64,000 nucleotides of DNA from Haliclona indistincta (Eukaryota; Porifera; Demospongiae; Haplosclerida; Chalinidae), in assembly GCA_964017065.1 (NCBI GenBank), contig OZ024792.1, positions 5,451,754 through 5,515,753 of the forward strand, given 5' to 3'. This document shows positions 6,001-56,671 of this stretch, piece after piece. Both the position numbers and the translations under genes were made by a program. The first letter of the stretch is position 1. The number at the start of each line of letters is the position of its first letter. The notes beneath the pieces were generated by a model. It worked only from the letters and a program-made list of their open reading frames with translations. It ran no database searches and had not been told where the DNA came from.

Positions 6001-7203
6001 CTATGGTAATAATTTTTATTATCTAATTGAGTTAAAAAAATCTGTAAAACTTTTCTCATAATAGAAACTCCATTGACTGAGTTCACAGCTGAGAGCAGCT
6101 CTCTCCCAGCTACCCACACCACTACACTAACCTGCACTGCTACAGGAGGATATCCACCAGTGGACAGTATAACACTGTACAAGAACAATGAGCTCATCAT
6201 GAGGACCTCATCTGGTGTACTACATTACAACACTACCACATCATCTCAGTATGGTAGATATCAATGTGTGATTGATTCAGTAATACACTCTGTACAAAAG
6301 TCATTACTTTTACAAGAAGAAGGTATAATGATGTTATTAAGGTTTTGACTCATTAATTGTTATTTTGTATAGAACATTTGACAATTGTGTTTGAAGTTCA
6401 AGACTGTTCTATGTGGGCTGTAAGTATATGCATAATAATAATATTGTTATAATTATTTGTTTGAAGGGATTTAGTCTACAAAAATTTGAGAAAGCTCTTT
6501 CTAGATTTGTTGGTGAAATTCCTGATGCAGCTGCCCTGTTTATAAACTCATCACTATCCTGCTCCTCCTCCTCCTCCCTCACCTTCTCCTCCACACTTAC
6601 TTACTCCTCTGATGATGCCTCTCTCACTGCAACTGATCTCATCAATCGCATTAATTCACAGCTAACATCAGCTCTTGTTTCAGTGAATGGAATTTAACTT
6701 CACGTGATGGAGATGAGCAGTGACAGGACAACAACAATGACATCTTTACTGGTTGGACTCTTTCTTGGAGGATTCGGGTCATCAGCACTCATATTGCTGA
6801 TTGTGATTGTCATTATACTGTGAGTTTGTATAAGTTATGAAAAGTCAATGAAAGTGTATTTCTTGTTAACAGGATAATTTTTAAGTGTTGTCGAAGAAAG
6901 CAATACAACCTCGATATCAGCACTGAAGCTCGCTACTGTTCCAGTGCTCAAGCTGTGAAACTATCAAAAGCTCCTCAAACCACGCCAGTTCCTGAACCAC
7001 CAACTTCTTGTCCTCCACCACCTCTAAAACCAAAGAAGAAACAAGCTGCTTTGCCCAAGGCTCCACCAAAAGTTCCACAAGCAATGTTGTGGGACAACCC
7101 TTCCTATGGATACACTAATCGTGATGATCCTGAAATGTATGAAGAACTTAATGTTGAAGTGAGCAACAAAGAAGAGTATGGTGGAGAGTACGAGTGCATC
7201 TGA
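3036..7203 (+). pseudogene. receptor unit 1: SRCR-Ig transmembrane receptor, 5' incomplete, frameshifted, distinct cytoplasmic tail
   Basis: Exons: SRCR4 3036-3203, 3249-3413; SRCR5 3463-3630, 3681-3848; SRCR6 3894-4061, 4111-4296; SRCR7 4347-4514, 4570-4758; Ig1 4815-5108; Ig2 5160-5511; Ig3 5651-6005; Ig4 6065-6322; linker 6373-6419; membrane-proximal module plus TM 6477-6819; tail 6873-7203. SRCR7 carries a 7-residue tandem duplication (GRYGKGV twice, near 4590-4631). Lesions relative to the other units: a 4-base insertion in Ig2 (about 5468) leading to a TGA at 5513-5515, an 11-base deletion in Ig3 (about 5823), and an in-frame TAA at 6695-6697 just before the TM helix. The tail is unlike the others: CCRRK after the helix, PPPPLKPKKK (SH3-ligand type), DNPSYGY, MYEELNV and a C-terminal YECI. 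Probably a pseudogene, or a secreted or alternatively spliced form. The missing 5' exons may be left of the retrotransposon. Confidence 0.7.
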
Positions 7204-12021: not shown

Positions 12022-13958
12022 CTGTGGCAATAAACAGCCACGAGTCACATTGCAACCCATTGTCGTGCTAAGCCTGTTCATATCTTTACCGAGTTTCAGA
12101 AGTGAGCGATGGTCTCTGCAGCTCGATCGACATAGAACGAATGACCAATGACCACAAGGACAAGGTGTGTCAAGTGGGCGTGACCGTGAACACTTAGTAG
12201 ATAGCCATTGCTCTTGGCTTTTTCTTGAGATGTCTACGCACCCCAGAGCTGTCTTAGATGGAATCTGGAATCTACAAGTACCTAGGTAGTCAACTATGGG
12301 CGCTTTTGTCGTCAGAAAGGTCAAAGACGGCCGTCAAGGTGAGCCAGCCATAACTCGAGAACAAAAGCACTTTAGCAAAATCCACGAGTCAGATTGCAAG
12401 CCATTGTCATGCTAAGCCTGTTCTTACCTTTATCGAGTTTCAGAAGTGAGCGATGGTCTCTGCAGCTCATTGGACAGACAGAATGAATGAACGAACGAAT
12501 GAACAGATTTCACAAAACCCTCGGCGTGTTGCACATTGGCTCCTTAGTTATGGTTTGCAGAAGGAGCTTTACAGCTAAAGGCAACCTGCTTGCTATTGAA
12601 ACTGCACTGCTAACCAGAAGACAGCAAAATGCTAACCACTTTATAGGCGTGTCATGTGGGTGTGACCATGCATGTGAGTAGGTAGCCATTGCTAGCTGTA
12701 GGCTGATATCTACGCACACTCAGAGCTGTCCTGCTGTTTAGATGGAATCTACAAGTACCTAGATAGTCAAACATTGGCGCTTTTGTAGTCAGAGAGGTCC
12801 AAGATGGCCGTCAAGGTGAGCCAGCCATACATAACTCGAGAACGAAAGCACTTTAGCAAAATCCACGAGTCACATTGCAAGCCATTGTCGAGCTTGTCAT
12901 GCTCATAACCTCACCAGCGCGTAGAAATGATCGCTGATCTCTGCAGCTCGATGGACAGAATGAATGAACAGATTTCACGAAACCCTCGGCGTGTTGCACA
13001 TTGTAGAGAAAGCTCCTTAGTTATGGTTTGCAGAAGGAGCTTTGCAGCTAAAGCCAACCTGCTTGCTATTGAAACTGCACGGGTAACCAGAAGACAGCAA
13101 AGTGCTGACCACAAGGACAAGGTGTGTCAAGTGGGCGTGACTGCGAACACTGAGTAGGTAGCCATTGCTCTTGACTTTTATAGGCGTTTTTCTTGAGATT
13201 TCTACGCACCCCAGAGCTGTCCTGAAGTTTAGATGGAATATACAAGTACCTAGGTAGTCAACTATGGGCGCTTTGGTCGTCAGAGAGGTCCAAGATGGCC
13301 GTCAAGGTGAGCCAGCCATACATAACTCGAGAACGAAAGCACTTTAGCAAAATCCATGAGTCACATTGCAAGCCATTGTCGAGCTAAGCCTGTTCATACC
13401 TTTACCGAGTTTCAGAAGTGAGCGATGGTCTCTGCAGCTCGATGGACAGAATGAATGAACAGACTTCACGAAACCCTCGGCGTGTTGCACATTGTAGAGT
13501 TAGCTCCTTAGTTATGGTTTGCAGAAGGAGCTTTGCAGCTAAAAGCAAACCTGCTTGCTATTGAAATTGCACTGCTAACCAGAAGACAGCAAAGTGCTGA
13601 CCTCGTGCTGACCACAAGGACAAGGTGTGTCAAGTGGGCGTGACCGTGAACACTGAGTAGGTAGCCATTGCTCTTGGCCTTGATAGGCTTTTTCTTGAGA
13701 TGTCTACGCACCCCCAGAGCTGTCCTGCAGTTTAGATGGAATCTACAAGTACCTAGGTAGTCAACTATGGGCGCTTTTGTCGTCAGAGAGGTCAAAGACG
13801 GCCGTCAAGGTGAGCCAGCCATAACTCGAGAACAAAAGCACTTTAGCAAAATCCACGAGTCACATTGCAAGCCATTGTCATGCTAAGCCTGTTCATACCT
13901 TTACCGAGTTTCAGAAGTGAGCGATGGTCTCTGCAGCTCATTGGACAGAATGAACGAA
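12022..13958 (+). repeat. ~490-bp tandem satellite, about four units
   Basis: The anchor GCCGTCAAGGTGAGCCAGCC recurs at about 12329, 12807, 13298 and 13800 (spacing about 480-500 bases), each followed by CTCGAGAAC and CACGAGTCACATTGCAA-type sequence. A partial unit begins near 12022. Units differ by small indels and substitutions. No coding potential beyond chance ORFs. Confidence 0.85.
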
Positions 13959-13960
13959 CG

Positions 13961-14095
13961 AATGACAAACTAAGTACCGTAACCCTCGCGCATGCGCCGA
14001 GGGTTAATGACAAACTAAGTACCGTAACCCTCGCGCATGCGCCGAGGGTTAATGACAGAGCAAGTACCGTAACCCTCGCGCATGCGCCGAGGGTT
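13961..14095 (+). repeat. 45-bp minisatellite, three copies, each with a palindrome
   Basis: Units start at 13961, 14006 and 14051. Each carries AAGTACCGT and then the interrupted palindrome AACCCTCGCGC...GCCGAGGGTT. Confidence 0.9.
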
Positions 14096-14209
14096 AATGA
14101 CAGACAACGCGATTACAGTATGCCTCGTGGCTCCGCCCACCGAGGCATAATGACAGACAGACACACAACACGACTACTGTATGCCCCGTGGCTCCGCCCA
14201 CCGAGGCAT
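14096..14209. repeat. two foldback-family hairpins upstream of unit 2
   Basis: Two copies of the 29-bp hairpin (14120-14148 and 14181-14209, the second with GCCCCG in place of GCCTCG), joined by CAGACAGA-rich sequence. They end about 100 bases before the unit 2 start codon. Confidence 0.75.
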
Positions 14210-14311: not shown

Positions 14312-20366
<6,055 letters not shown>

Positions 20367-24240: not shown

Positions 24241-29796
<5,556 letters not shown>

Positions 29797-32615: not shown

Positions 32616-37979
<5,364 letters not shown>

Positions 37980-39668: not shown

Positions 39669-42600
39669 ATGTTGAAGACCAGGTCCAAAGCAGTGCTGTT
39701 ATTCATTTGTAAGCTCTATATGCGTAGAGATAATGCGGCAAAATTCGTGCATGGTGTCCTCACGTGTGTCCTAGCTTTTTTGATGCACTACAGCTTATAC
39801 ATGTTCTCCAACTATTTTTAGATTATATCATCTCTGTTGTGCACGGTAGCTGCACTCATGGAGCAGTACGACTGGTGAATGGTACTACTACCAACTGGGG
39901 GAGGGTGGAAGTGTGTGTAGGACAGACATGGGGAACAGTGTGTGGTGGTCATTACGGCTTCTACAGTAGTAATGCCAGAGTGGTGTGCCGTCAACTGGGA
40001 TACAATGTGGACAAGCCTAGGACTTGTATGTTACATTTATGACTAAGTTTAATATTCACTTTTGAATCTACAGATATATATTATAGGCACGGTGCTTACT
40101 ATGGACAAGGTAGTGGATCCACTTGGTTGGGTGATCTGGGTTGTAATGGTAATGAACAAAGACTATTGGATTGTACAGCTAGACCCATTGGTAGTTATTA
40201 TTGTGAACACACTGAAGATGCTGGAGTAGTGTGTTCAGGTACTTTTATTTATTCAAATGTGCAGCTTTATAGAACTCCACGTACTCCAGATACTTGTGTT
40301 GCTGGTAATGTTCGTCTCATTGGTGGACTGGTACCAATAGAGGGAACTGTACAGATGTGTGTGGGAGGGAGATGGAGAGAACTGTGCGATAGTGGTTGGG
40401 GCTATCAAGAGGCATTTGTTGTGTGCAGACAGCTAGGACTACCTGCTACTGGTGAGTGTGTGATAATAACACATTATATGTGATAACAAAATTCTCTATT
40501 ATCAAATTGCAGCTGCAGTAGGTGAGACTTATACAAAACATAAAGATTTTATTTGTAATAGTTATCACAGTTATTAGTAGTTCAAATTTTAGTCCAAGAT
40601 CTTTACAATCTCTGTACTCAAACTTCCGTTGCTACGGCAATGAATCCTCACTAATGAACTGTTTGTACTCCTCCTCATCATGCACATCAAGTTATCCTAG
40701 TGATGCTGCTGTGAGATGTGGTGGAGACATTGCAGGTATTAAAGTTGATTATTATTATTTCAACTTTTAGCTCACAACAGCTAGTTGTCTTCACAATGGT
40801 AGTATTCGTCTGGTTGGTCCCAGTGGTCCCAACACAGTTGAAGGGAGAGTGGAATACTGCAGTAATGGAGTGTGGGGGACTATTAATAACTTTTACTTTG
40901 ATACAAGAGATGGTGAAGTGGTGTGTAGACAACTTGGATACCAGAATCCACGTAAGTTTGATCTTTAAAAATCACACATGTCATTCTCATCATTAATTCA
41001 GGTGTGAAACTATTCAGAAGCAACAAGTTTGGGAGAGGAAATGGTCCAGTAAGTTTTACTGGCTTGTCCTGTACTGGAAATGAACTGTCAATAATAAACT
41101 GCTCTCACTCATCAAACTCTCACTTTAATTACTACTATTACTACTATTGTCACTCTTGCAACTATTTTCACGACGGAGACATTGGAATACGCTGTTTGCT
41201 AAAAGGTTAACTATTTTGTGTTCACACTACTATCTACAATAATGCAGGATTGGTTCAATTGAGTAACATATTCATTGAAAAATGATCACTTTGTGAAATT
41301 AATAATTGTCACAATTTGATATTGAAATGATAATCTTTCATTAATAATATTTTATAGGCTATACTGAAGTTTTTACATTCTATAGTATCGTCATCATGTA
41401 CTAATGGAGCAGTTCGACTGATGAATGGGTCCACATCAGATGAGGGAAGAGTTGAAGTGTGTGTTAATGGAGAGTGGGGGACAGTGTGTGATCGATACTG
41501 GGATCGAAGAGAAGCTGAAGTTGTTTGCAGACAATTAGGATACAATCCTTCATGTGAGTGATCATTGTGATACTAACATGCTATTATAATCTATTTTAGG
41601 GACTATATACTATCGCTCCTCAAAATTTGGTGATGGCTCACTACCTATTCTAGCTCAGTCATACAGTTGTACAGGAACTGAGAGTAATCTGACCAGCTGT
41701 AGTGGGACAACAGGATACTCAACCTGCTACTATGGTAGAGTGGCTGGTGTACGCTGCTTCAGTAGGTTACACTATCATGTTGTATCAATAATATTACTCT
41801 AGTATTGTAGGAAACACAGGTTGTGTGAATGGAACAGTTCGTCTGGTCAATGGAAGAAGAGCCAGTGAAGGATCTGTTCAGATATGTGTTAATGGAGTCT
41901 GGGGACATGTGTGTGGACATGGTTGGTCTTCCAATAATACAAGAGTTGTGTGTCGCCAACTGGGATACTCTACAACAGGTATAATAATTTTTTGAGTTGA
42001 TTCTTATTTATTTCTCAAATTAGTATATAGCAGAAGCAGAGGCTTGTTCAATGAAATCAAACCTCAACCAATAATATATGGCAGGATATCATGTTCCAGT
42101 ACTGCACAATCATTGTCAGTTTGTAGTAAAAATGAGTACTACTACACCACCTGTCCCATCACTTATACTGGTGGAGTACATTGTGAAGGTAATCTTCACT
42201 TTATTGGAATTTATGTTTCTGTTAATAGGGAGGCACGGTAGTGACTCCCGGCTATGTAGGGATGAACGAGAAAAGAAGATGGCGGCTACATACAATGTAT
42301 TAGCGTTCAAACGGTGATATTTCGCCTGGTGATGAATTGTATACGTCCAAAGACACTTAGATCTGCTCTCTGGCGTTGCCCCATCTTACAGTAGCAAGGA
42401 GATTGCTCGAAATTTTACTAAAGTGATGAACCTGGAAACGGTGAAAATCGACTTTCGTCATCTTCGTTTTCTTTCTTTCTTTCTTTAACTCGCCTAGCGC
42501 CTTTACGCGAGCAGTATCGAGACCAAAACACCCACAAACAGTCGTGAAATTCTCCTGGCATGTGCCTTTGCCCCATAGAAACACTCTGTGCGAAGTAACG

Positions 42601-45600
42601 TGACAGGCACGTGATTCTATGACGCAAACAGATCTTGGTACATGGTCGATCTGCCTAGTCATAGATTTACAAGAAATAAAAAGATTTCTAACGAAATCAA
42701 AAGGATGTAGGGATAAAGAAATCTGCTACTGGTCCACAATGTAAACCAACAAGGAGCAAGCATGGAATGGTTACACGATTGACTTGCTAACAGACCATAG
42801 ATCCCTACATCAGTGGCTGTACATAACATTTTGACTATACTATAATTATTTTGTCACAAGCTAACCAATGCATGTCAGGTGTCAGTCAATAGCAACTAGC
42901 AGAACTGCTGTAGTCAGCCACTGATGTAGGGATCTATGGTCTGTTAGCAAGTCAATCGTGTTACCATTCCATGCTTGCTCCTTGTTGGTTTACATTGTGG
43001 ACCAGTAGCAGATTTCTTTATCCCTACATCCTTTTGATTTCGTTAGAAATCTTTTTATTTCTTGTTTGTGTCCTTTTTTCTTTTACAGTGAGTTTCAAAT
43101 TTTGGTGCAGTTCGAATTCGGCAAGATAATGTATCTCTTTTTTGTTTCCATCATTGGTTTGCTTTTTTTGATAATTGCTTTTTAACTTGTAGCTCCTAAA
43201 TACTGAAACTAGCTCATGCGTTCATGCATGCTGCAGCCTGCATGCACAGCATACGAGCCCCGCCCACTCTGGTTTAGAATTTTCTGTATGGCTGTGATAC
43301 TATCTGGCAAGCAGCAGAACGGTGATACTACACGAGCTTACTCTGTGAGCTGTTCTTCGAAGACTCCAGACGCCAATATGCGCTCTCCATACGGCGATAC
43401 TCTACAAGTGTGTTTGGTCACGTGCGTATTACGTAATCACAATAATGGCGTCAAACACTTAGCTGACAACTGTTCGTGATCGTGAGCTCGTCAAATGTAT
43501 ATCGTCGTTTCGCAAAAACTAAGCTCAAAAGGCACATGCCAGGAGAATTTCACGACTGTTCGTGGGTGTTTTGGTCTTGACAATGCTCGTGTAAAGGCGC
43601 TAGGCGAGTGGAAGAAAGAAAGAAAGAAAACGAAGATGACGAACGTCGATTTTCACCGTTTCCAGGTTCGTCACTTTAGTAACACTTTCGAGCAATCTCC
43701 TTGCTACTGTAAGATGGGGCAACGCCAGATAGCAGATCTAAGTGTCTTTGGACGTATAAAATTCATCACCAGGCGAAATATCAGCGTTTGAACGCTAATA
43801 CATTGTATGTAGCCGCCATCTTCTTTTCTCGTTCATCCCTACATAGGGAGGCACTACCGTGCCTCCCTAATGAGACTACGTAACCGGGATTGGAAACGGT
43901 GCATGTGCGTTGAAACACTCCGCGTCCGTTGCTAGGGTGGACTTGCAATGTGGCTGTCAGCGGCGCAGCAACGGTCAAACGACAAACGCTTAAGCCAGGA
44001 AAACCCGAAGAATACTTTCTTGCTGCCCTTTGCACAATGTAATCTACAGTGTCCTGGCTATTACTTGAGCATAGCCTCGTACTCAGGCTCTCGGACGGGC
44101 TGCGTGGGTGGCTATTATACAGAGAGCCTGGTACGCATTGCATGCGCATGCGCGAAATTAACCATCTGATGGTTAATCCGTATTATTCATGGTATTTCTG
44201 ATACTGAACTACAGTTGTTTGCGAAGATCTTGCATAACGGAAGCGAAAGCGGAAGTATGACGTTGGCCAATCAAACGTACGTAGGCGTGACCAACTGAAG
44301 CTGTACACGTGACGAAAAGTGAATTTGATTGGCCAGTGTCACACTTCCGCTTTCGCTTCCGTTATGCAAGATCTTCGCAAACAACTGTAATGCTCCGGAC
44401 TATTCTAACTTCTTAATTATACTTATGCACCTATGTTGGTGTGTGTTCTCAATAATAATAATAATATACTACAGTAAACTACTGTTGATGTCCGTGCACT
44501 CTTGCTTATGTCAGGATACGCATTGTTAGTTAGGAAAAAAAAACACAGAAGCAGCGGTGTTTAGGCCGGCTAAGCATGCCACGATGAAACATTGTACTGT
44601 TACGAGCCATATCGAACGCCACGAGCGGCAAGTATTCTAGATTTTGGCCTGATTTCGACAAAGTGTTTTATGTCTAGACAGATCTCCAATTGCTCACAAT
44701 TTGGTCGTGTGTACCTGGACAAGCGGCCAAGTAGATGCAGCAGCTTGCCCGAGCGTGGTTGGATCCCAAACAATAGTTCCAGCGTTGTTCGCATTAATGC
44801 ATAAATTTATGGTTCCGGTTAGGTACAGGAGGAATGCCGCATACTTAATATTCATAATACAATTAACCACACCCACTCTTGAATGAATATTGGTTATCTT
44901 TCCCGCGCGACCCGCGAAATCTGATCTCTGGTAGGATCAAGTGAAAAGAACGGCACCTCGTTAATTTTATGCGCACTTAAGTGGGCGGGCAAACTAAATG
45001 CTAAACCCAAAACCCTAAAAAAATCGCCTAACTGCGCAAGGTCGGGAGGGTCTTCCTAACTAAAGATCGTCGGGAGGGTCTTCCTAACTAAGGATCGTCG
45101 GGAGGGCCGTGCTCTCGGCAGTGCTAACAGCGCAAACCACGGATCGACTTAACACGGGCCACGCCCACTTAAGTGCGCATAAAATTAACGAGGTGCCGTT
45201 CTTTTCACTTGATCCGAAGAGACTAATACTGACAACTCATGATGCTGCAAGCCTAATAGTACGAGCGAGCACGCCTAGTAGAACCTTGTTGATGTCAATA
45301 TCATACTCACAGAGGCTTCTAGTCCTTTACAACTTATCTGCGTGGTGTAGGAACCTTACTGTGCGTAGAATCTTGCTGCCGGTAAGTTAGAATACTTGTT
45401 CACGTCTGGATAGGTCAGTTTTAACCCGCCATCTGAAGCTTTAACGAACAGATCAGTGATACTTAGGGTATAGTACTGCTCTAGACAAATTTCATACCTC
45501 TGGCTTGCGCGCTGAAGCGTCCAGAGCAGAGACAAAACGCAGAATCGATCGAGATAGCTGCAAAACTGATGTGGGCGGAGTTAATGATACGAGCGTCAAG

Positions 45601-48600
45601 AGGGTTAAATATTTAATGGCGTCTTCAGTCCAAGACGGCCCAAAAACCATGTTTTTCAAGGATTACTCGCTTCTGGTAGTGTTTAATGCCTATCCAAGAA
45701 GTAAGTGCACTATTCCAGATATATACACGTACAATTGTGCAGGTTTGGTAGTGATTCGTTCACTCAGGACACTGGACAGTGCTAGGCTCGTTCAAAGAAG
45801 AAAGAAAGAAGAAGAAGAAAGAAGATGAACAATTCGCGTGGGCGGCGATTTTAGTTTACCACTTTAGAAACGTCTGTCAGCTTCGCCAAAGGTATTTCCA
45901 TGCTCAGAACAATCGTCTGATCAAGCCTAGATGTCTGGAATCTCGAGAAACGCTAAAACAGCGAATATCTGTGACGGCTCTGTGAGAGTCGCCATCTTGA
46001 TTTTCGTCGTCAAGCAAGCAGTCCCGGCGACTTTCATAGACTTCCGACAAGCGCTTACACTTCAGATTCACTTAGAGATAGTTAAAATGCAGCAGAAATG
46101 TATAACAATAGAGATATGTGCGAAAACTCATTTTCACACATGAGTAGCCGCCATCTTAGTTCGAGGTCATCCCTACATATCATTGCCGATCGGCAATGAT
46201 AATAATCCCGCGCTGTATTTACTCTCCATTGTAGCACTCTGCGTGGGCGTATCAAAGGCGCCGCCCGTTCTATATTTTCCATAATGTGAACGCCGTTCGC
46301 AATATGGAAAATATAGCACGGCCAGGGAAAATATAGCACGCCAGGAGGGTTAAAGATAGGGTGGGCGGAGACTGACCTTGGCTCGACCTCGAGAATAAGT
46401 CGCCCTGGCACAAAGATTCAGTGACAACGGCAAGCTGTCGTGCTACAAACCAGTAAAAGCACCGTCTGCTCGTGCAATACGGGAATTATTGCGTTCGGGG
46501 TGTCGGTCTCGACGCTGATACAGCACTCGGCTTCGCCTCGTGCTGTATCACCGTCTCGACCACACCCCTCGCGCAATATTGCACTGAGTCTCGTTAAGCG
46601 GAGACTTCCTAATTAATAGGGTTCTCCTCAGCACTCGCGTTATGCGAGTCATCATCGATACTATTTGCTATAAAGGCTTGTTTGTAGCAATAAGTTTAAC
46701 TTACAGCTAAACCCAAAACCCTAAAAACCTTCTCCTAACTGCGCAAAGTAGGGAGGGTCTTCCTAACTAACTAAGGATCGTCGGGAGGGTCTTCCTAACT
46801 AAGGATCGTCGGGAGAGTCTTCCTAACTAAGGATCGTCGGGAGGGTCTTCCTAACTAAGGATCGTCGGGAGAGTCTTTCTAACTAAGGATCGTCGGGAGG
46901 GTCGTCCTAAACCGGGCCTTAGGCCCTTAGTTAGACCCCGTTCACACTGCACGTTAGAACCGGGCCGAACCGAACCGGGCCACACTTTATGATCAAAGTT
47001 CCGACACAACCGAACCGTGCTGGAAGCGGCCCACCTATGGTTGGTGTGCCGCGATGGTATAGTTCAGTTCAGTTGTAGCTCAGTTCAGTTGCATTCACAC
47101 TGTCAGAGATTTGTAACCGGGCCGGCCCGGTTCGGTTCCGTTTAGTGCGTAGTGTTAACACGGTTTAAGCATAAGGATCGTCGGGAGAGTCGTCATAAAC
47201 AGGCCTCAACTAAGGATGGAGCTAAAACTTAACTTTTATAAATAAAAAAACACCAAAAAATGCATTCTGCGAGAATCGAATCCTGACCGCCTGCATCACA
47301 AACCACCATACTAAACCGCTGTGCCACCGAACCAACTGACCGGTTGGTGCTACAAACAAGCCTTTATAGTAATTCTGTACGCGCGCGCACAACGCGAGTG
47401 CTTAGGAGAACCCTATTAATTTTTTTTTATAGAAATAACACACACATTTAGCAAATCGTGCTAGTAGTGGTAGGTATAATTAATTAAGTTAACTAAATAA
47501 AGGTAAAATAAGTTTTTTAAATAACTTAAGGTCAGTACACAGTTTAGCTTCTGTAGGTAGGTTATTCCATAATTTAATAGAACGAAACATGAAAGAGTTG
47601 GCAGACTGATTAGGAAGTCTCCGCTTAACGAGACTCGATTGAGTTCATTACCCGAATTTCGGGTAATGTTATTCACGGTATTATTACGTCAACAGACGTA
47701 AATGCAATTGTCACGTGAACGCGCTACGACAAATGATGGCAGCGATCTGCAGGTACTGCGCTTCTACGACGATTTGCAGAAGCGGTTTGCAGCAGGCTCG
47801 TATCCCACAGCCTCCAAAGTGAACTAGGCACCCCGTGGTAATATCATAAAGACCAGCGACTTGCCATACCACGCCTGAGTCGAAGAAAGTCTCTCTTCCA
47901 CCGAGAACTGCACTAACAACGTCTTTCTGAAAAGGCGCAAGATTTGATAGCCCAGAGAGAGCGTGAAATGGCGTTATTGTACTGTAGTAAGTTGCTCGTC
48001 ACAGCGTGTCGATTGCATTTCTACACTATGCAAGAACGGCCGCCATGTTTATTCTGTGACAGAGGAAGTATGTTGACGTAATAATACCTTGAATAACATT
48101 ACCCGAAATTCGGGTAATGAAACTAATCATCTTGCGAGTTTGGCTAGACCCTCTCCCGCATCTGACCCGCCCCCTTTTTTCTTTTGCGGGAGAGGGCCAT
48201 AGCGCGCTAGACTAGCACTGGACGCGTACGCAAGATCGAGAAGCTGTTTTATGGCAGCCACAAGCTATCTGCAGCTACCAGAAATGATGTGTAAGCTTAA
48301 GAAGACGCTAGCAACTACTCAAAAAATTTAGTGGGATGCGTTTTAAACGCACTTTGGCTACTTACAGACTAGCAGGCAGCTATAGCTAGCTCATGGCATC
48401 CTTAACGCGGCTCCTCGACCTTGCGTACGCGTCCAGTGCACGCTCAAAGTGTTGAATTTACTGTACATTTTCATTGAGATCAAGCAATTTTTGCCTCCCG
48501 GAAGTAAATTACGTAATGTTTTTGACGTCACATGCAACTGCCCTATATGCTATACTATCTCTCTTAACTTTTTTTTCATAGTATACGCTATACTATGCGC

Positions 48601-51600
48601 TCACGTGAGCGCATAGTAACAATACATTTTTGGTGAGTGCACTCCGCGTTGCGCTTGACCCAAATGGCGCACCAATACATTTAGCGAGCAGAAAGTCGTG
48701 AACTTTGTGTACCTCTACTGCAAATACTAAAGTTCTGTTTTTAGTGTACGCTGTTGCTTTATAATTGTTATTCACGTTGATCAATGTGGTGTAGGCATGT
48801 TTTTCAGCGCCTAGGGCGATACTGCAGTGCAGAATTCGTACTTGTTAGTGACCTTTTTTGTGTACCTCTGGACGCAACATGACAAATATCCGAATAAATT
48901 CAATACCTTGGAGCTACTGTTCGATGATTCGAATATGGTTTAGGCTATAATCTGTATGCAGACAAAGCGTTATCTCTTTGCAAAACGCCTTTGATTCGGG
49001 CAGTTTTTGTATTAAGTAATACTGTAACCATGCAGAACCACACCGTATCCAAGGGCAAAATTCACTTCCGGCGCAACGCGGCCGAGTGTATACACTAGGG
49101 TCTCCAATGAAAAAATTGACAGTCACAGATTCAGCGGGCTTTCATCTCGGTGTGTAGAGTAGCTTGACCCGAACATAAAACGGACAAAGAGAGTAGCGCC
49201 AAGTCCTTCCTTTTTGCAGGAAAAAATAAAAACACTCGAAGTAACTGGGCGAGCTAGCCAATCGTAAGTAAATACTTTTTGTTCATACTGCATTCAGCGC
49301 CAAAGCTTAGTTTTGTTGGTAAGGATGCACAGGATCATGCTGTCAAGATTTCCAAGCTCTTCGACGTCGCGGCGATCTTTATGCGCTGTTTCCAGGCCAT
49401 ACATAGGGTCCGCAATGAAAAAATCGACTGTCACAGATTCAGCGGGATGGCGACTCAGTGTGTAGAGTTGCTTGGTACGGACATAATAGGGATATACAGA
49501 GAAGCGCCAAGTCTTTCCTTTTTGCAGGAAAACAATAAAACGCTAAAAATTAGGGGTGGAGCCTACGAAGTGCTTTATAAACTATTTTATTTTCGAGTTA
49601 CATTCGATGCACGCGATACAGTTTTGTTGTCAAGAATGCACAGCATCGTGCTGTCATGATTTCAACACTCTTCGAGGTCGCAACAGCTCCTCTGCATCGT
49701 TTTCAAGGCGTAATTTGCAAGTGGGCGGGGTTTCCGAGACGCCACAATAACAGTTCTTGGTCTCTAGCGCTCTTGTACATAGTCCAATAGCAACCCTCAT
49801 GCACTTTCTGTCCAAGTAGGGTAGCAATGTAATTGCACACCAGGTTTAATCAAGTTCATTTGCTTCCTTCCACCAAATCCAAAATTTTGAAGTATATCTT
49901 GGAATTGGTGGAAGGAAGCAAATGAACTTGATTAAACTTGGTGTGCAATTACATTGCTACCCTACTTGGACAGAAAGTGCATGAGGGTTGTCATTGGTCG
50001 ATGTACAAGAGCGCTAGAGACCAAGAACTATTATTGTGCCGTCTCGGAGACCCCGCCCACATCCAAATTACGCCTTGAAAACGATGCAGAGGAGCTGTTG
50101 CGACCTCGAAGAGTGTTGAAATCATGACAGCACGATGCTGTGCATTCTTGACAACAAATCTGTATCGCGTGCATCGAATGTAACTCGAATATAAAATACT
50201 TTATAAGCAATTCGTAGGCTCCACCCCTAATTTTTTAGCGTTATATTTTTCCTGCAAAAAGGAAAGACTTGGCGCTTCTATATCTATCCGTTCTATGTCC
50301 GTACCAAGTAACTCTACACACTGAGTCGCCATCCCGCTGAATCTATGACAGTCGATTTTTTCATTGCGGACCTACCATACATTGAAAGAGGGCGGGGCCA
50401 TAAGACGATCACGAAAATAGACTTACTAGATTTTGTTTAGTTAGGTATCAATACATCTGCACAGCGAGTTTTATGGAGTTCATTCACTTCCTTCCATCTG
50501 GCTCAAAAATTTTCTGTTTTATTTTTAGTTTTTGAGCCAGATGGAAGGAAGTGTATGAACTTAATAAAACTCACTGTGCAGATGTATTGACACCTAACTA
50601 AGCAAAATCTCCATTAGGGTTGGTACAGCATAATTTACAAAAGCGCTGGAGTCCCAAGTCTATTTTCGTGATCGTCTTGGGGCCCCACCCTCTTTCGATG
50701 TATGGCCTGGAAACAGCGCATAAAGATCGCCGCGACGTCGAAGAGCTTGGAAATCTTGACAGCATGATCCTGTGCATCCTTACCAACAAAACTAAGCTTT
50801 GGCGCTGAATGCAGTTTGAACAAAAAGTATTTACTTCGATTGGCTAGCTCGCCCAGTTATTTCGAGTGTTTTTATTTTTTTCCTGCAAAAAGGAAGGACT
50901 TGGCGCTTCTCTCTTTGTCCGTTTTACATGTATGTTCGGGTCAAACTACTCTACACACCGAGATGAAAGCCCGCTGTCAATTTTTTCATTGGAGACCCTA
51001 TATACACGGAAATGCCCAGCGTCCAATCCCAGTCCGTAGGCAATATAATATCTATGATCCAGGCTTCAGCATGCATGAATGCATGAGCTAGTTTCAGTAT
51101 TTAGGAGCTACAAGTTAAAAAGCAATTATCAAGAAAAGCAAACCAAACCAATGATGGAAACAAAAAAGAGATACATTATCTTGCCGAATTCGAACTGCGC
51201 CATAAATTTGAAACTCACTGTAAAAGAAAAAAGGACACAAACAAGAAAATAAAAAGATTTCTAACGAAATCAAAAGGATGTATGGATAAAGAAATCTGCT
51301 ACTGGTCCATAATCATGGGCGTAGGAACAGGGGGGGCCACAGGGGCCAGGGCCCCCCTTATTTTTGAGCTTACTATAGAGTTGTTCAGAAAGTACCCAGC
51401 AAGTCTGTTGCATTGCCAACGAGTCTCAGTTTAATACCTAGACCACTACACTATACACTGCCATGCCATCAGTGCAACTAATCTTTATGGCTGGATTATT
51501 CTTGGTAACCGTAGCACGTTTGCATGTCGAAGATAGCCATGAAATCGCTGAAATAACGCCCCTTATGAATATTAATTAGCAAAATTTTTCGGCTCGCTCC

Positions 51601-54600
51601 GCTCGCCTACATCTTGGGCCCCCCTGCTCAAAAAATCTTCCTACGCCACTGATAATGTAAACCAACAAGCAGCAAGCATGCGAATGGTAACACGATTGAC
51701 TTGCTAACAGACCATGGATCCCTACATCAGTGGCTGACTACAGCAGTTCTGCTAGTTGCTATTGACTGACACCTGATTTTTTTTTTTTTTTTTATGACAA
51801 TTTAGCCTACAGCTAGGTCGTACCAGTAACAATGCTAATACAAGGGTACAAACCAATAATAATAATAATAATAATGAAAATAATAATTAGTTGGTGTTAC
51901 AAGAATAATTTAACTTACAGGGTAAAACAAGGTAAGAACAGCTTTAATAACAATCATTCCAATAGTTGATAACAGCCTTTTTAAAACTTGATACAGAACC
52001 AACTAAACGAACTTCTGATGGCAACTCATTCCATAATCTCACCGCGTCTGGATAAAATGATGCATCGTAGGAACAGGTGTGTGGCGCTGGACCACCAATT
52101 GCAAGACGCGTGGAATCGTGGTTTCTCAGTCTTAGGTCCATTGGATGTGCATTGAATTGAATTTAGCTTGTGACAAAATACCGTATAGCCGGTTATTTTC
52201 GATGGTCAAATATTTCGTTGGTAAAATTTTAGATTGGATCTAATTTTCGATACTCACTCGCCATTCGAAAATAAAATCCAGGCTAAAATTTGTTACCCTT
52301 CGCTTCATCTCAAACTCAATGGCGTCCACGAGTCGGGCGTCGAATTGTTGGAGAATGGAGAACTGTATATAGTCGTTAAACCACCGTCCAACCACGTTTT
52401 GTGATTGTTAAATGGAACCACAGAGTCGAAGATAAGTTGCTGTACCGCGGTGTCCACCTTTTCGCTTATCGATCGTGCGAGTAGTCTCTCGCGTGCAGCA
52501 GTGCGCATGGCAGACATTTCTCTAACAGAGGCGCTTGGCGTACAGTTTTGCTGCTATCGCTGCTCGCTGCTACCGTCAGATTCTGGTAAGAAGCGTTGGA
52601 AGTGGGCTCTAGCCACGATCTGTGTCTGCACGAGAAAATTTTGGGTGTTCAAAATTTTTGGTATGGTTCAAATTTTCGTGGATTTAATTTTCGAACGGCA
52701 GTCGGTGATCGAAAATTAAATCCAGTCGAAAATAACCGGCTATACGGTAATTATAGTATAGTCAAAATGTTATGTACAGCCACTGATGTAGGGATCTATG
52801 GTCTGTTAGCAAGTCAATCGTGTTACCATTCCTTGCTTGCTCCTTGTTGGTTTACATTGTGGACCAGTAGCAGATTTCTTCATCTCTACATCCTTTTGAT
52901 TTCGTTGGAAATCTTTTTATTTTCTTTAAAAATAGTTCCATCCAATTGTACTTCTGGTGCTGTTCGACTGGTGAATGGTAGCAGTGATAGAGAGGGAATA
53001 GTAGAGGTGTGTTACCAGGGAGTGTGGACTGCTGTGGATGGTGTATATTGGGATTATCGTGATGCTCGTGTGCTGTGTCGTCAACTAGGATACCATGATA
53101 AGTGTGAGTAAAAAATTAATAATGATAATTATTATAATAGGTCTTTTTCAAAAATTCAGGGGCTGTTGCCATTGGAAACACCCATTTCAAGAAAATGAAA
53201 TTTGTTTATATATACTCCTGTAGTGGAAGTGAAATGTCACTTCATTTATGCATGAAATCTACATACCTTCTAAGTTTTGATGCTGAATATTGGTACACCA
53301 GATCAAAAGCTGCAGTGGAGTGCCAACAATTGAACATAAACCTTACAAGTAAGACTTGTCAGTGCATCAGTTTGTGCATAGTTCAGGCCACTATACATGC
53401 AGTCACATGTACAATGGAGGGTGCTACTCGACTAGTGCATGGTTCTACTGAGAGAGAAGGAAGAGTGGAGGTGTGTCAGGATGGATACTGGGGGACAGTC
53501 TGTAGTGACTCATGGACTGAGGAGGATGCTTATGTGGTGTGCAGACAAATACTTGGACAAAATACATTGAGTTAGAAATAACTTGTTTTATTGTTATACT
53601 TCATGATGCAGATATCTGCTCACAGGAGCTATCGCTATCACTGATGGTCGTTATGGTAAGGGAGTGGGACCAGTTCACATGAGCAGTGTTAGGTGTGATG
53701 GACATGAGATGAGGTTGGAGAATTGTAGTCACAGTAATGGAGTGGGAGTGACCAACTGCCATCATGAGAGAGATGCTGGAGTACTGTGTGAAGGTAATGT
53801 ATTTTTGTTTTGGCTGATTTTGTGACTTATTATCCGTGAAAGTTCCAACTCACTATGATGTTTCTATTGAGGGATCTGACGAACCATATTCCATTGGTAG
53901 TAAGAACACTATGCACTGTAATGTGTCTCCTAGGCCACACCAACCAGTCACCTACCAGTGGAGAACCACTGCAGCTACTGGAGTCATCCTATCAGATACT
54001 AGTGCAGTCTCAACTAATGCTACTGTAGTGATTCAATCATCAGTCACTAAGTATGTATACTGTTACTGTATTGTCAAACAGACTGGAACCACTATTGGGA
54101 CTGGAGTCATCAGGATAGTAGTGAACAGTGAGAACTATCATCATTGTTACAATTGTTGTTGATTGGTCACTACAGATATCCTCCAGCCAGCAGTTCCTGT
54201 ACCATTGATGGCTACTACTAGCTCTGATATCACTCTGAGAGTGAATGTGACTGAGACAGACAGAAACACTTACCTGCGAGAGCTGACCTGGTATCACAAT
54301 GGAGTGAAGATCAACCCAACTAGTAACACTAGACTCAACCTCACCAGTGACAATACATCACTGAGCATCAGTAGTGTTACTGATAGTGATAGTGGCCAGT
54401 ACTCTGTGCAGTATGATGGTCTGAGACTATACCCTTATGATAGTGGCTGTGAGAGACAAGCACTTGATCTGTTTAGACACTATCCACTACTAGCACCAGC
54501 TGTACTATATCTATCAACTGATGGTGAGAAATAAACTAAACTGCTATGATCATACTCTGCTACTATAGGAATATTTTCTGAAAACATGGAATCAATGTTA

Positions 54601-56671
54601 TCAGTGTCACTGAAAAATCTTTTTAACAGTACCTCTCCCAAGGTCGATATTTCAGTAAATATTTCTACTGATGACTACTTAGGTGTATCATATCGCTGGT
54701 TTCACAATGCTATCTCGTTTCCTGTTAAGACAACATTTCAACCACAGCAAGTAAAACTGACTCTAGATAATCCCTCTTTACTCAATGATGGTGTGTATGA
54801 GACACAACTGGGAACAAGTACACATTCAAGGCTGACCTGTGACAACCCATCACCATACACTGGGTTCATGGGAACAAGTACTGTGATCATTAGAAGTGAC
54901 ATTCAGCAGCTACTGTACTATGGTAATTGAGTAGAGTATGCATGATTTGTAAAACTTTTCTCATAATAGAAACTCCATTGACTGAGTTCACAGCTGAGAG
55001 CAGCTCTCTCCCAGCTACCCACACCACTACACTAACCTGCACTGCTACAGGAGGATACCCACCAGTGGACAGTATAACACTGTACAAGAACAATGAGCTC
55101 ATCATGAGGACCTCATCTGGTGTACTACAATACAACACTACCACATCGTCTCAGTATCAATGTGTCATTGATTCAGAAATACACACATTACAGAAATCAC
55201 TGCTATTGCAAGAAGAAGGTAAAACTGCAATTTTATGCAACGCAATAATGATTGTCTGTAAACAGGACAAATGAATATTTCTTTTCAAACTAATAACTGT
55301 TCTATGTGGAGTGGTGTAAGTTATTGATTGCCCACACACCTGTTGTTACAATATTGTGTTATAGAGTTCAAAAGCACAAGAATTTGAAGCGTCACTTTCT
55401 AAGTTCACTGACCAACCAGCTGGTGCTGTCTTGTTCATGAACTCATCGCTATCCTGCTCCTCCTCCACTCTCACCTTCTCCTCCACACTCACTTACTCCT
55501 CTGATGATGGCTCTCTCACTGCAACTGATCTCATCAATCGGATAAATTCTCAATTATCGTCTGAGAATGCTACGGTTAAGGTTCAACTTGATGTAGTTGA
55601 AGTGACAATAATCAGTAGAAATGAGCAATGTTTGTCAACTATTCCTACATCATCACCATCATCATCACCCTCATCATCCTCACCATCACCATCATCCTCA
55701 CCCTCATCATCATCACCATCACCATCATCCTCACCCTCATCATCATCACCATCACCATCATCCTCACCCTCATCAACATCATCATCATCAGCTCTAATTG
55801 GTCTCTTCTTTGGAGGAGTGGGTTCAGCAACACTCATTTGGGCAATTGTGATTATTGCAATAATACTGTGAGTTAAACATTGTAATTATTTTACAACGCA
55901 ATTGTCTTGAAAAATAGGTTAATTCTAAAGTGTCGTCTAAAGAAGGATGACAGTAATAATGCTGTAGCAGTCTCGATAGTTAGGAATGTTAAACAACAAG
56001 AGCAGAACATTGATTGCAACACTAATCCTGCCTATGAGAGTTATGGCATCACTAATCCTGCCTATGAGAATGGTATTGACTGCATCACTAATCCTGCCTA
56101 TGAGAATGGTATTGACTGCAACACTAATCCTGCCTATGAGAATGGTATTGACTGCATCACTAATCCTGCCTATGAGAATGGTATCGACTGCAACACTAAT
56201 CCTGCCTATGAGAATGGTATTGACTGCATCACTAATCCTGCCTATGAGAATGGTATCGACTGCAACACTAATCCTGCCTATGAGAATGGTATTGACTGCA
56301 ACACTAATCCTGCCTATGAGAATGGTATTGACTGCAACACTAATCCTGCCTATGAGAATGGTATTGACTGCATCACTAATCCTGCCTATGAGAATGGTAT
56401 CGACTGCAACACTAATCCTGCCTATGAGAATGGTATTGACTGCAACACTAATCCTGCCTATGAGAATGGTATTGACTGCAACACTAATCCTGCCTATGAG
56501 AATGGTATTGACTGCAACACTAATCCTGCCTATGAGAATGGTATTGACTGCAACACTAATCCTGCCTATGAGAATGGTATTGACTGCAACACTAATCCTG
56601 CCTATGAGAATGGTATTGACTGCAACACTAATCCTGCCTATGAACAAGTAGTTTATGAGCAGCTCAATTAA
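39669..56671 (+). CDS. receptor unit 5: intact SRCR7-Ig4 receptor with 18-copy NPAY cytoplasmic tail and a 10.7-kb intron
   Basis: Exons: signal 39669-39708 ([13 protein letters not shown]); SRCR1 39822-40025, 40074-40238; SRCR2 40290-40451, microexon 40513-40521, 40571-40735; SRCR3 40781-40951, 41002-41205; SRCR4 41386-41553, 41600-41761; SRCR5 41811-41978, 42024-42188; SRCR6 52936-53103, 53160-53348; SRCR7 53403-53570, 53626-53793; Ig1 53843-54127; Ig2 54176-54523; Ig3 54569-54922; Ig4 54970-55218; linker 55266-55315; module, stalk and TM 55365-55867; tail 55918-56671. No stop was found and phases match across the large intron. SRCR3 has a Tyr-rich expansion with an added C-x-x-C. The stalk is a long (S/P)n tract from a TCACCA microsatellite. 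The roughly 250-residue tail has 18 NPAY motifs, 15 of them in perfect 12-residue repeats, and ends VVYEQLN (ITIM-like). Inferred role: surface recognition with multivalent adaptor docking or endocytosis. Confidence 0.85.
42227..43868. mobile_element. long-TIR foldback element in unit 5 intron
   Basis: It starts AGGGAGGCACGGTAGTG and ends CACTACCGTGCCTCCCT. The outer arms are long (about 42227-42655 against 43520-43868), share GCCGCCATCTTCTTTTCTCG-type sequence and include a GAAAGAAAG tract. Another foldback is nested in the middle. No transposase ORF, so non-autonomous. Confidence 0.85.
42669..43065. mobile_element. nested foldback, 151-bp arms (CAGCCACTGATGTAGGG family)
   Basis: Left arm 42669-42819 and right arm 42915-43065 are inverse complements. 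Inner ends read CATCAGTGGCTG / CAGCCACTGATG; outer ends read ACAAGAAATAAAAAGA and its complement. Relatives occur at 51240-52925 and 59341-59733. Confidence 0.85.
43869..44210. other. unclassified intronic sequence
   Basis: Unique-looking and GC-richer than the genes. Nothing recognised apart from the short palindrome TTAACCATCTGATGGTTAA (44157-44175). Confidence 0.4.
44211..44388. mobile_element. 178-bp MITE with 45-bp TIRs
   Basis: The ends are ACAGTTGTTTGCGAAGATCT and the exact complement AGATCTTCGCAAACAACTGT. The arms continue through the purine-rich CGGAAGCGAAAGCGGAAGT. The interior is about 88 bases. Confidence 0.9.
44389..44933. other. unclassified intronic sequence
   Basis: No ORF above chance and no recognised repeat apart from a short TAATAA run near 44452-44465. 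Confidence 0.4.
44934..45215. mobile_element. 282-bp TIR element enclosing GGATCGTCGGGAGGG repeats
   Basis: Left terminus GGATCAAGTGAAAAGAACGG, right terminus CCGTTCTTTTCACTTGATCC; arms about 55 bases to CACTTAAGTGGGCG. The interior has about 2.5 copies of a 28-30-bp unit (GGGAGGGTCTTCCTAACTAA) that recurs in 46751-46910. Confidence 0.88.
45216..46471. other. intronic repeat zone without recognised genes
   Basis: Contains a GAAGAAAGAAAG purine tract (45796-45826), the perfect palindrome ATCATTGCCGATCGGCAATGAT (46179-46200) and a CTATATTTTCCATA / TATGGAAAATATAG hairpin near 46270-46315. ORFs here are short and match nothing I recognise. Confidence 0.5.
46472..46584. repeat. 113-bp palindrome
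   Basis: The ends are GTGCAAT and ATTGCAC. The inner arms CTGATACAGCACTCGGC / GCCTCGTGCTGTATCA pair around TTC. Structure resembles the palindromes in the unit 3 insertion, but the sequence differs. Confidence 0.8.
46751..46910 (+). repeat. 28-bp tandem repeat, about five copies
   Basis: The unit GGATCGTCGGGAGGGTCTTC recurs at 46775, 46803, 46831, 46859 and 46887. It is shared with the interior of the element at 44934-45215, and a degenerate copy is near 47174. Confidence 0.88.
47261..47337 (-). other. tRNA-derived sequence (SINE-like or tRNA pseudogene)
   Basis: On the - strand an A-box-like TGGCACAGCGGTTTAG (47311-47326) and a B-box-like GGATTCGATTCTC (47271-47283) are spaced as in a tRNA gene, followed by a TTTTTTGGTGTTTTTTTA tail. 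The cloverleaf does not close well by eye, so I favour a SINE head over a working tRNA. Confidence 0.45.
47490..47618 (-). mobile_element. LINE ORF2 C-terminal remnant
   Basis: The - strand frame reads [17 protein letters not shown] followed by a K/L-rich end and a stop. This is the conserved C-terminal box (R...LWN.LP...FK) of CR1/L2-like reverse-transcriptase ORFs. 5'-truncated, as is usual for LINE copies. Confidence 0.6.
47646..48119. mobile_element. 474-bp TIR element with hairpin termini
   Basis: Left end CATTACCCGAATTTCGGGTA and right end TACCCGAAATTCGGGTAATG. Each terminus is itself a palindrome, and the TIR extends to about 45 bases (GTTATTC, TATTATTACGTCAA). The interior is unique. 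Confidence 0.88.
48215..48439. mobile_element. 225-bp TIR element
   Basis: Termini GCACTGGACGCGTACGCAAG and its near-complement CTTGCGTACGCGTCCAGTGC, arms about 25 bases. The interior includes TTTTAAACGCACTTTGG. Confidence 0.8.
48592..48617. repeat. 26-bp perfect palindrome
   Basis: Arms ACTATGCGCTCAC / GTGAGCGCATAGT centred on CACGTG, next to a second TATACTATG-type hairpin on its left. Confidence 0.85.
48618..49089. other. unclassified intronic sequence
   Basis: No ORF or repeat that I can assign. Confidence 0.35.
49404..50373. mobile_element. 970-bp foldback, arms about 475 bp
   Basis: Begins AGGGTCCGCAATGAAAAAAT and ends ATTTTTTCATTGCGGACCT. The arms run almost to the centre near 49888, where CTTCCTTCCACCAA / TTGGTGGAAGGAAG pair. 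CCATACAT flanks it on both sides (49396-49403 and 50375-50382), a likely 8-bp target duplication. Its termini resemble those of the surrounding element. Confidence 0.85.
50383..50697. mobile_element. 315-bp foldback
   Basis: Ends GAAAGAGGGCGGGGCC and GGGGCCCCACCCTCTTTC. Arms include AGACGATCACGAAAATAGAC and its complement, and CACTTCCTTCCATCTGG with its complement near the centre. It adjoins the 970-bp foldback. Confidence 0.85.
51040..51311. repeat. inverted copy of 43000-43230
   Basis: Reads as the inverse complement of the region right of the nested foldback at 42669-43065 (for example GAGCTAGTTTCAGTATTTAG, TATCTTGCCGAATTCGAACT). Together with 51655-51760 and 52760-52925 it is a second foldback of the CAGCCACTGATGTAGGG family facing the first. 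Confidence 0.75.
51312..51651. mobile_element. 340-bp MITE inserted in a foldback arm
   Basis: Left end CATGGGCGTAGGAACAGGGG, right end CTTCCTACGCCACTG, with G-rich and C-rich subterminal tracts (GGGGGGGCC / GGGCCCCCC). Comparison with the empty arm at 42740 shows the insertion and a short ATAAT/TAAT flank. Confidence 0.85.
51777..52150 (-). mobile_element. 5'-truncated LINE (CR1/L2-like) with poly(A)
   Basis: A T17 run at 51777-51793 is the poly(A) tail on the - strand. Upstream, the - strand frame 52141-51944 ends with the C-terminal LINE box ([20 protein letters not shown]). It sits in the loop of a foldback. Confidence 0.75.
52179..52749. mobile_element. 571-bp TIR element
   Basis: Left ACCGTATAGCCGGTTATTTT, right AAAATAACCGGCTATACGGT, then subterminal ATTTTCGA-rich repeats in both orientations. 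The ORFs inside are short and unrecognised. Confidence 0.88.
52760..52925. repeat. right arm of foldback next to SRCR6 of unit 5
   Basis: Matches 42915-43065 (CAGCCACTGATGTAGGGATC to GATTTCGTTGGAAATC). The splice acceptor of the SRCR6 exon follows 10 bases later, so the 3' end of the large intron is transposon-derived almost to the acceptor. Confidence 0.8.
56017..56649 (+). repeat. 36-bp coding minisatellite in the cytoplasmic tail of unit 5
   Basis: Fifteen perfect-length 36-bp units (56081-56620) plus two degenerate ones before and one after. Each encodes C(N/I)[10 protein letters not shown]. Variation is almost only AAC/ATC at the second codon and GGTATT/GGTATC. Frame is conserved throughout. 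The homologous part of units 2, 3 and 4 has only one to three units. Confidence 0.97.

Follow-up and report, generated by a model that had tools for sequence, protein, structure and literature searches.

The stretch analyzed here (the window) comprises 64,000 nt of the genome of the sponge Haliclona indistincta, contig positions 5451754-5515753 of an assembly that totals 144 Mb in 46 contigs, and contains a gene with SRCR and Ig-type domains whose last exon encodes 18 NPAY motifs on an in-frame 36-bp minisatellite. Judging from the sequence, we lean towards the reading that this exon encodes an adaptor-docking tail of a receptor, in which the number of motifs has been raised by in-frame repeat exchange.

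The tail exon and its repeat array

The tail exon (55918..56671, forward strand) encodes a juxtamembrane segment, the 18 NPAY motifs, the C-terminal end and the stop codon, and is separated from the transmembrane exon by a 50-nt intron, GTGAGT...AATAG (55868..55917, forward strand). The minisatellite lies inside this exon (56009..56643, forward strand), with period 36, 17.8 copies and 95% matches according to Tandem Repeats Finder, and its repeat unit is ENGIDC(N/I)TNPAY. Recounting the motifs in the exon gave the same numbers as the first-pass annotation of this DNA, that is, 18 NPAY motifs, 16 of which are also Y-x-N (NPAYEN, with Asn at Y+2), while the number of NPxY motifs expected by chance from the composition of the tail itself is about 0.3. 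The tail has 18 prolines, every one of them within an NPAY motif. The residue five positions before the tyrosine (Y-5) reads NIINININNNINNNNNNN along the tail, being Asn in 13 and Ile in 5 of the 18 motifs. The array had been described as 15 perfect 36-bp units; there are indeed 15 full-length units, but only 11 of them are identical, three carry the same two changes (AAC>ATC and ATT>ATC) and one carries a single change. The tail terminus has YEQV and YEQL, the C-terminus being VVYEQL.

Splicing of the transmembrane exon, which ends at 55867, to the tail exon at 55918 would preserve the reading frame, which supports the receptor tail that had been proposed. One more forward frame and the reverse strand are also open across the array, hence openness by itself carries little weight here, and the coding frame was identified from the splice junction together with position and paralogues. 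Cysteine occurs 18 times in the whole tail, approximately once per unit, and the docking reading offers no explanation for it.

AlphaFold2, applied to the tail alone (window 55916-56668) as a single sequence without an alignment and with one residue partly derived from the intron, yielded a mean predicted local distance difference test score (pLDDT) of 47.5 and no residues at 70 or above, with the other four models at 26-32. The absence of a confident fold fits a flexible tail without proving it.

Tandem paralogues and their tails

The gene is one of 19 or more Ig-bearing paralogues arranged in tandem. In particular, 19 exons of the first Ig domain (Ig1) were located within 250 kb (the neighborhood was searched in 20 stretches), each with 7 or 8 SRCR exon hits upstream. 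The NPAY type comprises 11 tails, including one that lies upstream of all Ig1 exons in the set; counted in frame and listed along the map, their NPxY motifs number 1, 3, 1, 3, 6, 2, 1, 1 (frameshifted), 18, 5 and 3. Across these 11 paralogues the intron before the tail exon is 48-56 nt long, and the tail exon itself varies from 183 to 756 nt, its length being a multiple of three in 10 of them. Seven of eight alternative tail lengths are in frame (P about 0.003 if each length has a 1/3 chance of being in frame), a value that overstates the case, since 36-bp steps are in frame by themselves.

The first-pass annotation gave one to three motifs for the paralogues, and within the window this holds, with two NPAY at 20292..20336 and one at 29755..29766 (both forward strand), but two paralogues outside the window have five and six. 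The three-motif paralogue in the window (37862-37938) does have three motifs, but they are spread over two frames of its tail (37846..37951, forward strand), and a stop codon follows the single one in frame; the tail exon measures 229 nt, which is not divisible by three. The same receptor family has a second, Pro-rich tail class with NPSY (7096..7107, forward strand), YEEL and YGGEY. Altogether, NPxY is present downstream of Ig1 in open frames of 16 of the 19 cluster genes, in more than one tail class, with one tail of the Pro-rich class being partly masked in this count.

A degenerate search of the genome with every possible coding of NPAYEN yielded 24 matches, all within the cluster, and none for the reversed control; the search tool skips repeats and very common words. 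No open frame with two or more NPxY was found at 19 loci outside the cluster (several of them overlapping), which came from 82 tandem-repeat matches, 52 of these having no locus.

The cluster seems to have undergone more than one expansion, given the different repeat blocks, a 12-residue unit in the six-motif tail and a longer block in the five-motif tail. The three-motif form, observed in three of the 11 tails, is a likely starting point of the 18-motif tail, because their starts and ends are alike. One-motif tails may be the oldest form in the family.

The pre-repeat part of the tail shows differences at synonymous (pS 0.168) and nonsynonymous (pN 0.097) sites (10 tails, the frameshifted one excluded). 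In contrast to this part, the 43 motif copies are identical at every synonymous base, and only the third residue of the motif varies (Ala in 41 copies, Val and Asp in one each). The last motif and the C-terminus show no pairwise synonymous differences versus about 43 expected at the pre-repeat rate, these pairwise comparisons being not independent of each other. Homogenization or recent spread would explain the synonymous identity of the motif, and with no synonymous change in 43 copies its conservation is therefore not usable to argue that docking has been selected for. The 3' flank of the 18-motif gene differs from those of three close paralogues by 2.4, 3.3 and 3.6%, which points to a young 18-motif state.

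The Ig1 exon is nearly identical across the cluster (pS 0.021 over 19 copies), unlike the neighboring exons, where pS is 0.308 for the second Ig-type exon (14 copies), 0.441 for the membrane-proximal domain (15) and 0.099 and 0.115 for two SRCR exons (19). This suggests gene conversion limited to the Ig1 exon.

Another assembly, from ENA, contains 12 relatives of the Ig1 exon and, according to the tail query, three tails of the NPAY type. The first matches a cluster tail with three motifs at 98.9% along 92 residues, and the second, compared by eye with another three-motif tail, differs near the start and in one residue near the end. The motif number is equal in both counterparts (3 and 3), and no length difference was seen between these two pairs of three-motif tails. 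The third related tail (P0014) has 13-residue units and no exact counterpart in the cluster. In the protein database, the whole 261-aa open reading frame of the tail gave 5716 candidates, none of them at E<=1e-3, and a 118-aa paralogue tail gave three matches among 1026 candidates. Comparison of the Ig1 exon with solved structures yielded weak Ig matches only (the best being titin, 4.1e-9), and in viral contigs six stretches fit a pattern, none of them being a relative.

Upstream of the tail, the 18-motif gene comprises seven SRCR domains, two Ig-type exons, a membrane-proximal domain, a stalk and a transmembrane helix, all on the forward strand. First-half exons of SRCR domains 1-5 (39839-40003, 40283-40438, 40795-40947, 41385-41546 and 41816-41968) were identified by tblastn without stops or gaps and attributed to this gene by their position between neighboring tails. 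Those of domains 6 and 7 (52935-53099 and 53420-53551) have Pfam SRCR matches in the enclosing open frames, and two open frames of the gene score 40 and 49.1 bits with PF00530 (cut-off 26.1). The Ig1 exon (54166..54519, Pfam Ig_3/I-set), near-invariant in 19 paralogues, is followed by the second Ig-type exon (54616..54921), which has no Pfam hit and is named by position, and by the membrane-proximal domain (55365..55631), which has no Pfam match at the cut-off and bears the working label SEA-like. The Ser/Pro stalk (55651..55787) is encoded by a 33-bp minisatellite of 4.2 copies. The transmembrane segment (55782..55867) continues after splicing into the basic stretch LILKCRLKK; this succession of hydrophobic and basic residues, judged by eye in the translation, suggests a putative single transmembrane helix and a cytoplasmic tail.

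The stalk outside the membrane is 13 to 57 residues long in 11 paralogues, the longest being that of the 18-motif gene; stalk length and motif number show no significant correlation in the 11 tails (Spearman 0.41, P 0.21). SRCR exons 5 and 6 of this gene are about 11 kb apart, and the gap (window 41992-52590), which contains 28-bp tandem repeats (45041-45106 and 46751-46910), resembles an insertion. Two further long tandem arrays (491 bp x 3.7; 45 bp x 3.2) lie in window 12149-14102.

Proposed docking and its alternatives

In the proposed mechanism, the exon would encode the cytoplasmic part of a receptor belonging to the tandem SRCR-Ig family. Starting from three motifs, the in-frame 36-bp minisatellite would have reached 18 by repeated exchange or slippage, including the recurring N-I pair. 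If the gene is expressed with this part on the cytoplasmic side, as we infer, PTB-domain adaptors would dock on plain or phosphorylated NPxY, SH2 adaptors would dock at Y-E-N once it is phosphorylated, and the copy number would set the adaptor load per receptor. With one to six motifs in the sister genes nearby, docking capacity could then evolve quickly. The earlier suggestion that valence evolves by repeat slippage agrees with the changes by whole in-frame units, from 1 to 18 motifs between paralogues, but its docking part is based on motif resemblance only, as are the labels of PTB and Grb2 ligands for the tail motifs. The 12-residue spacing might, according to the first-pass annotation, favor adaptor clustering or condensation.

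Y-x-N is the consensus of the Grb2 SH2 domain, and several PTB domains prefer a hydrophobic residue at Y-5. The C-terminal VVYEQL resembles the immunoreceptor tyrosine-based inhibitory motif (ITIM), with the ITIM-like consensus (I/V/L/S)xYxx(L/V/I), but five of 10 tails end instead in YEQP (four) or YELP (one). The same genome encodes both adaptor domain types, as the exon-by-exon search yielded 10 PTB matches, of which five contain stops within the alignment, and 90 SH2 matches. PTB domains are described as mostly reading NPXpY or NPXY, with the majority favoring the unphosphorylated form (PMC3507883), and the Shc PTB domain is reported to recognize NPXpY (PMC5624076).

Several observations weigh against a docking tail. 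Ile occupies Y-5 in only five of the 18 motifs; one of the 11 tails, at window 37.8 kb, is frameshifted; and one unit of P0014 reads NSAY instead of NPAY. Moreover, among the 19 cluster genes NPxY is lacking in one tail of another class and was not found for two genes. The conservation of the motif could result from homogenization rather than selection, and the 18-motif state, being apparently young, may be neutral.

Neutral expansion is the main rival to the docking tail, because open-frame minisatellites with 12-residue units of unrelated sequence exist elsewhere in the genome, at no fewer than 6 of 16 loci (L009, L012, L013, L014, L015 and L030), where the open frames are candidate genes only and the tandem-repeat query favors a 12-residue period. 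In such a case one to a few motif copies would work, and the rest would be slippage tolerated in a flexible tail, with no functional effect. We consider this possible, though well short of probable: the stalk minisatellite of the same gene has expanded too, the array is recent and the motif lacks synonymous divergence, but the frame of the tail exon is kept in 10 of 11 paralogues, and two more paralogues have expanded on their own, to six and five motifs of different build. An endocytic tail, which seems to us rather doubtful, would bind clathrin-linked PTB adaptors (Dab/ARH/Numb type) by unphosphorylated NPxY and use YEQV and YEQL as YxxPhi signals, with the motif number setting scavenger-type uptake. 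It overlaps with docking without tyrosine phosphorylation, and the likelihoods assigned to the two are not exclusive. The SRCR domains of the extracellular part and the two signals at the tail end are consistent with uptake; still, the terminal YEQL is unconserved (five of 10 tails), the Y-E-N continuation of 16 of the 18 motifs is not needed for it, and Y-5 is not hydrophobic in 13 of 18.

The remaining alternatives are much weaker candidates. An assembly artefact or a mis-sized array is very unlikely, as the unit variants follow a definite order (the Y-5 series given above), the flanks are unique and the five- and six-motif paralogues are independent; the absence of long-array proteins above the threshold in the database search fits an artefact, but says little, because the later search gave just three such tails. 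Hardly credible is a folded solenoid, in which the 12-residue Cys-containing unit would stack as a beta-solenoid with a structural role. The best of the five AlphaFold2 models has short strands at regular spacing, but perfect repeats often yield such strand models, pLDDT 70 is reached nowhere, and the prediction comes from a single sequence.

Returning to the docking tail, a further and on the whole unlikely extension is that the docking valence of innate receptors is heritable and changes fast, differing from 1 to 18 among paralogues and likewise between individuals via in-frame exchange, with Ig1 held near-uniform by gene conversion. If true, the strength of signaling or uptake would be tuned apart from recognition.

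A single cluster with 1, 2, 3, 5, 6 and 18 motifs provides a natural dose series for adaptor recruitment, uptake and clustering, and for asking if an unstable repeat is able to adjust receptors in a family with links to the recognition of microbes.

Comparison with known systems

Among the systems with many tyrosine motifs, p130Cas is an adaptor and not a receptor. Its substrate domain is described as disordered, with 15 YXXP motifs docking SH2 adaptors, and the valence of motif-adaptor interactions is described as determining the threshold at which phase separation and clustering occur (PMC8791637). Like the NPAY tail, it has many tyrosine motifs, but the motif is YXXP instead of NPxY, and a minisatellite origin is not described in the account consulted (PMC8791637). 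In CagA, the EPIYA motif of a disordered tail is reported to bind SHP2 when phosphorylated, and its action has been linked to tandem-repeat polymorphism, though how the repeats act remains unclear (PMC5408210). The likeness to the NPAY tail is a tyrosine motif tandemly repeated in a tail (PMC5408210); unlike it, CagA is a bacterial protein delivered into host cells and carries EPIYA, so it serves as a comparison only, with no sequence relation claimed.

Bovine WC1 resembles the sponge family in having clustered SRCR receptor genes with cytoplasmic tails that vary in type and length, and its tyrosine phosphorylation is reported to be important for activation signals (PMC2681482). The WC1 tail types, however, are described as differing by exon number and not by an in-frame minisatellite, and neither Ig domains nor NPAY arrays appear in that part of the WC1 account (PMC2681482). 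Massive tandem expansion of SRCR genes is reported for another sponge, Amphimedon queenslandica, where 158 of 296 SRCR genes are in tandem arrays, with no tail motif array in the account as consulted (PMC10855680). Some sponge SRCR genes are reported to shift expression with microbes or microbial molecules (PMC6208332).

In the open-access library searched, NPXY, sponge and SRCR do not occur together in any paper, and a comparable NPAY array is absent from the titles and abstract openings of the papers listed there on NPXY tandem-repeat tails and on sponge SRCR tails. What is known, then, is the multivalent array of tyrosine motifs as such, and what is new is the variant, an NPAY array built by a minisatellite with a natural series of 1-18 motifs in an SRCR-Ig family.

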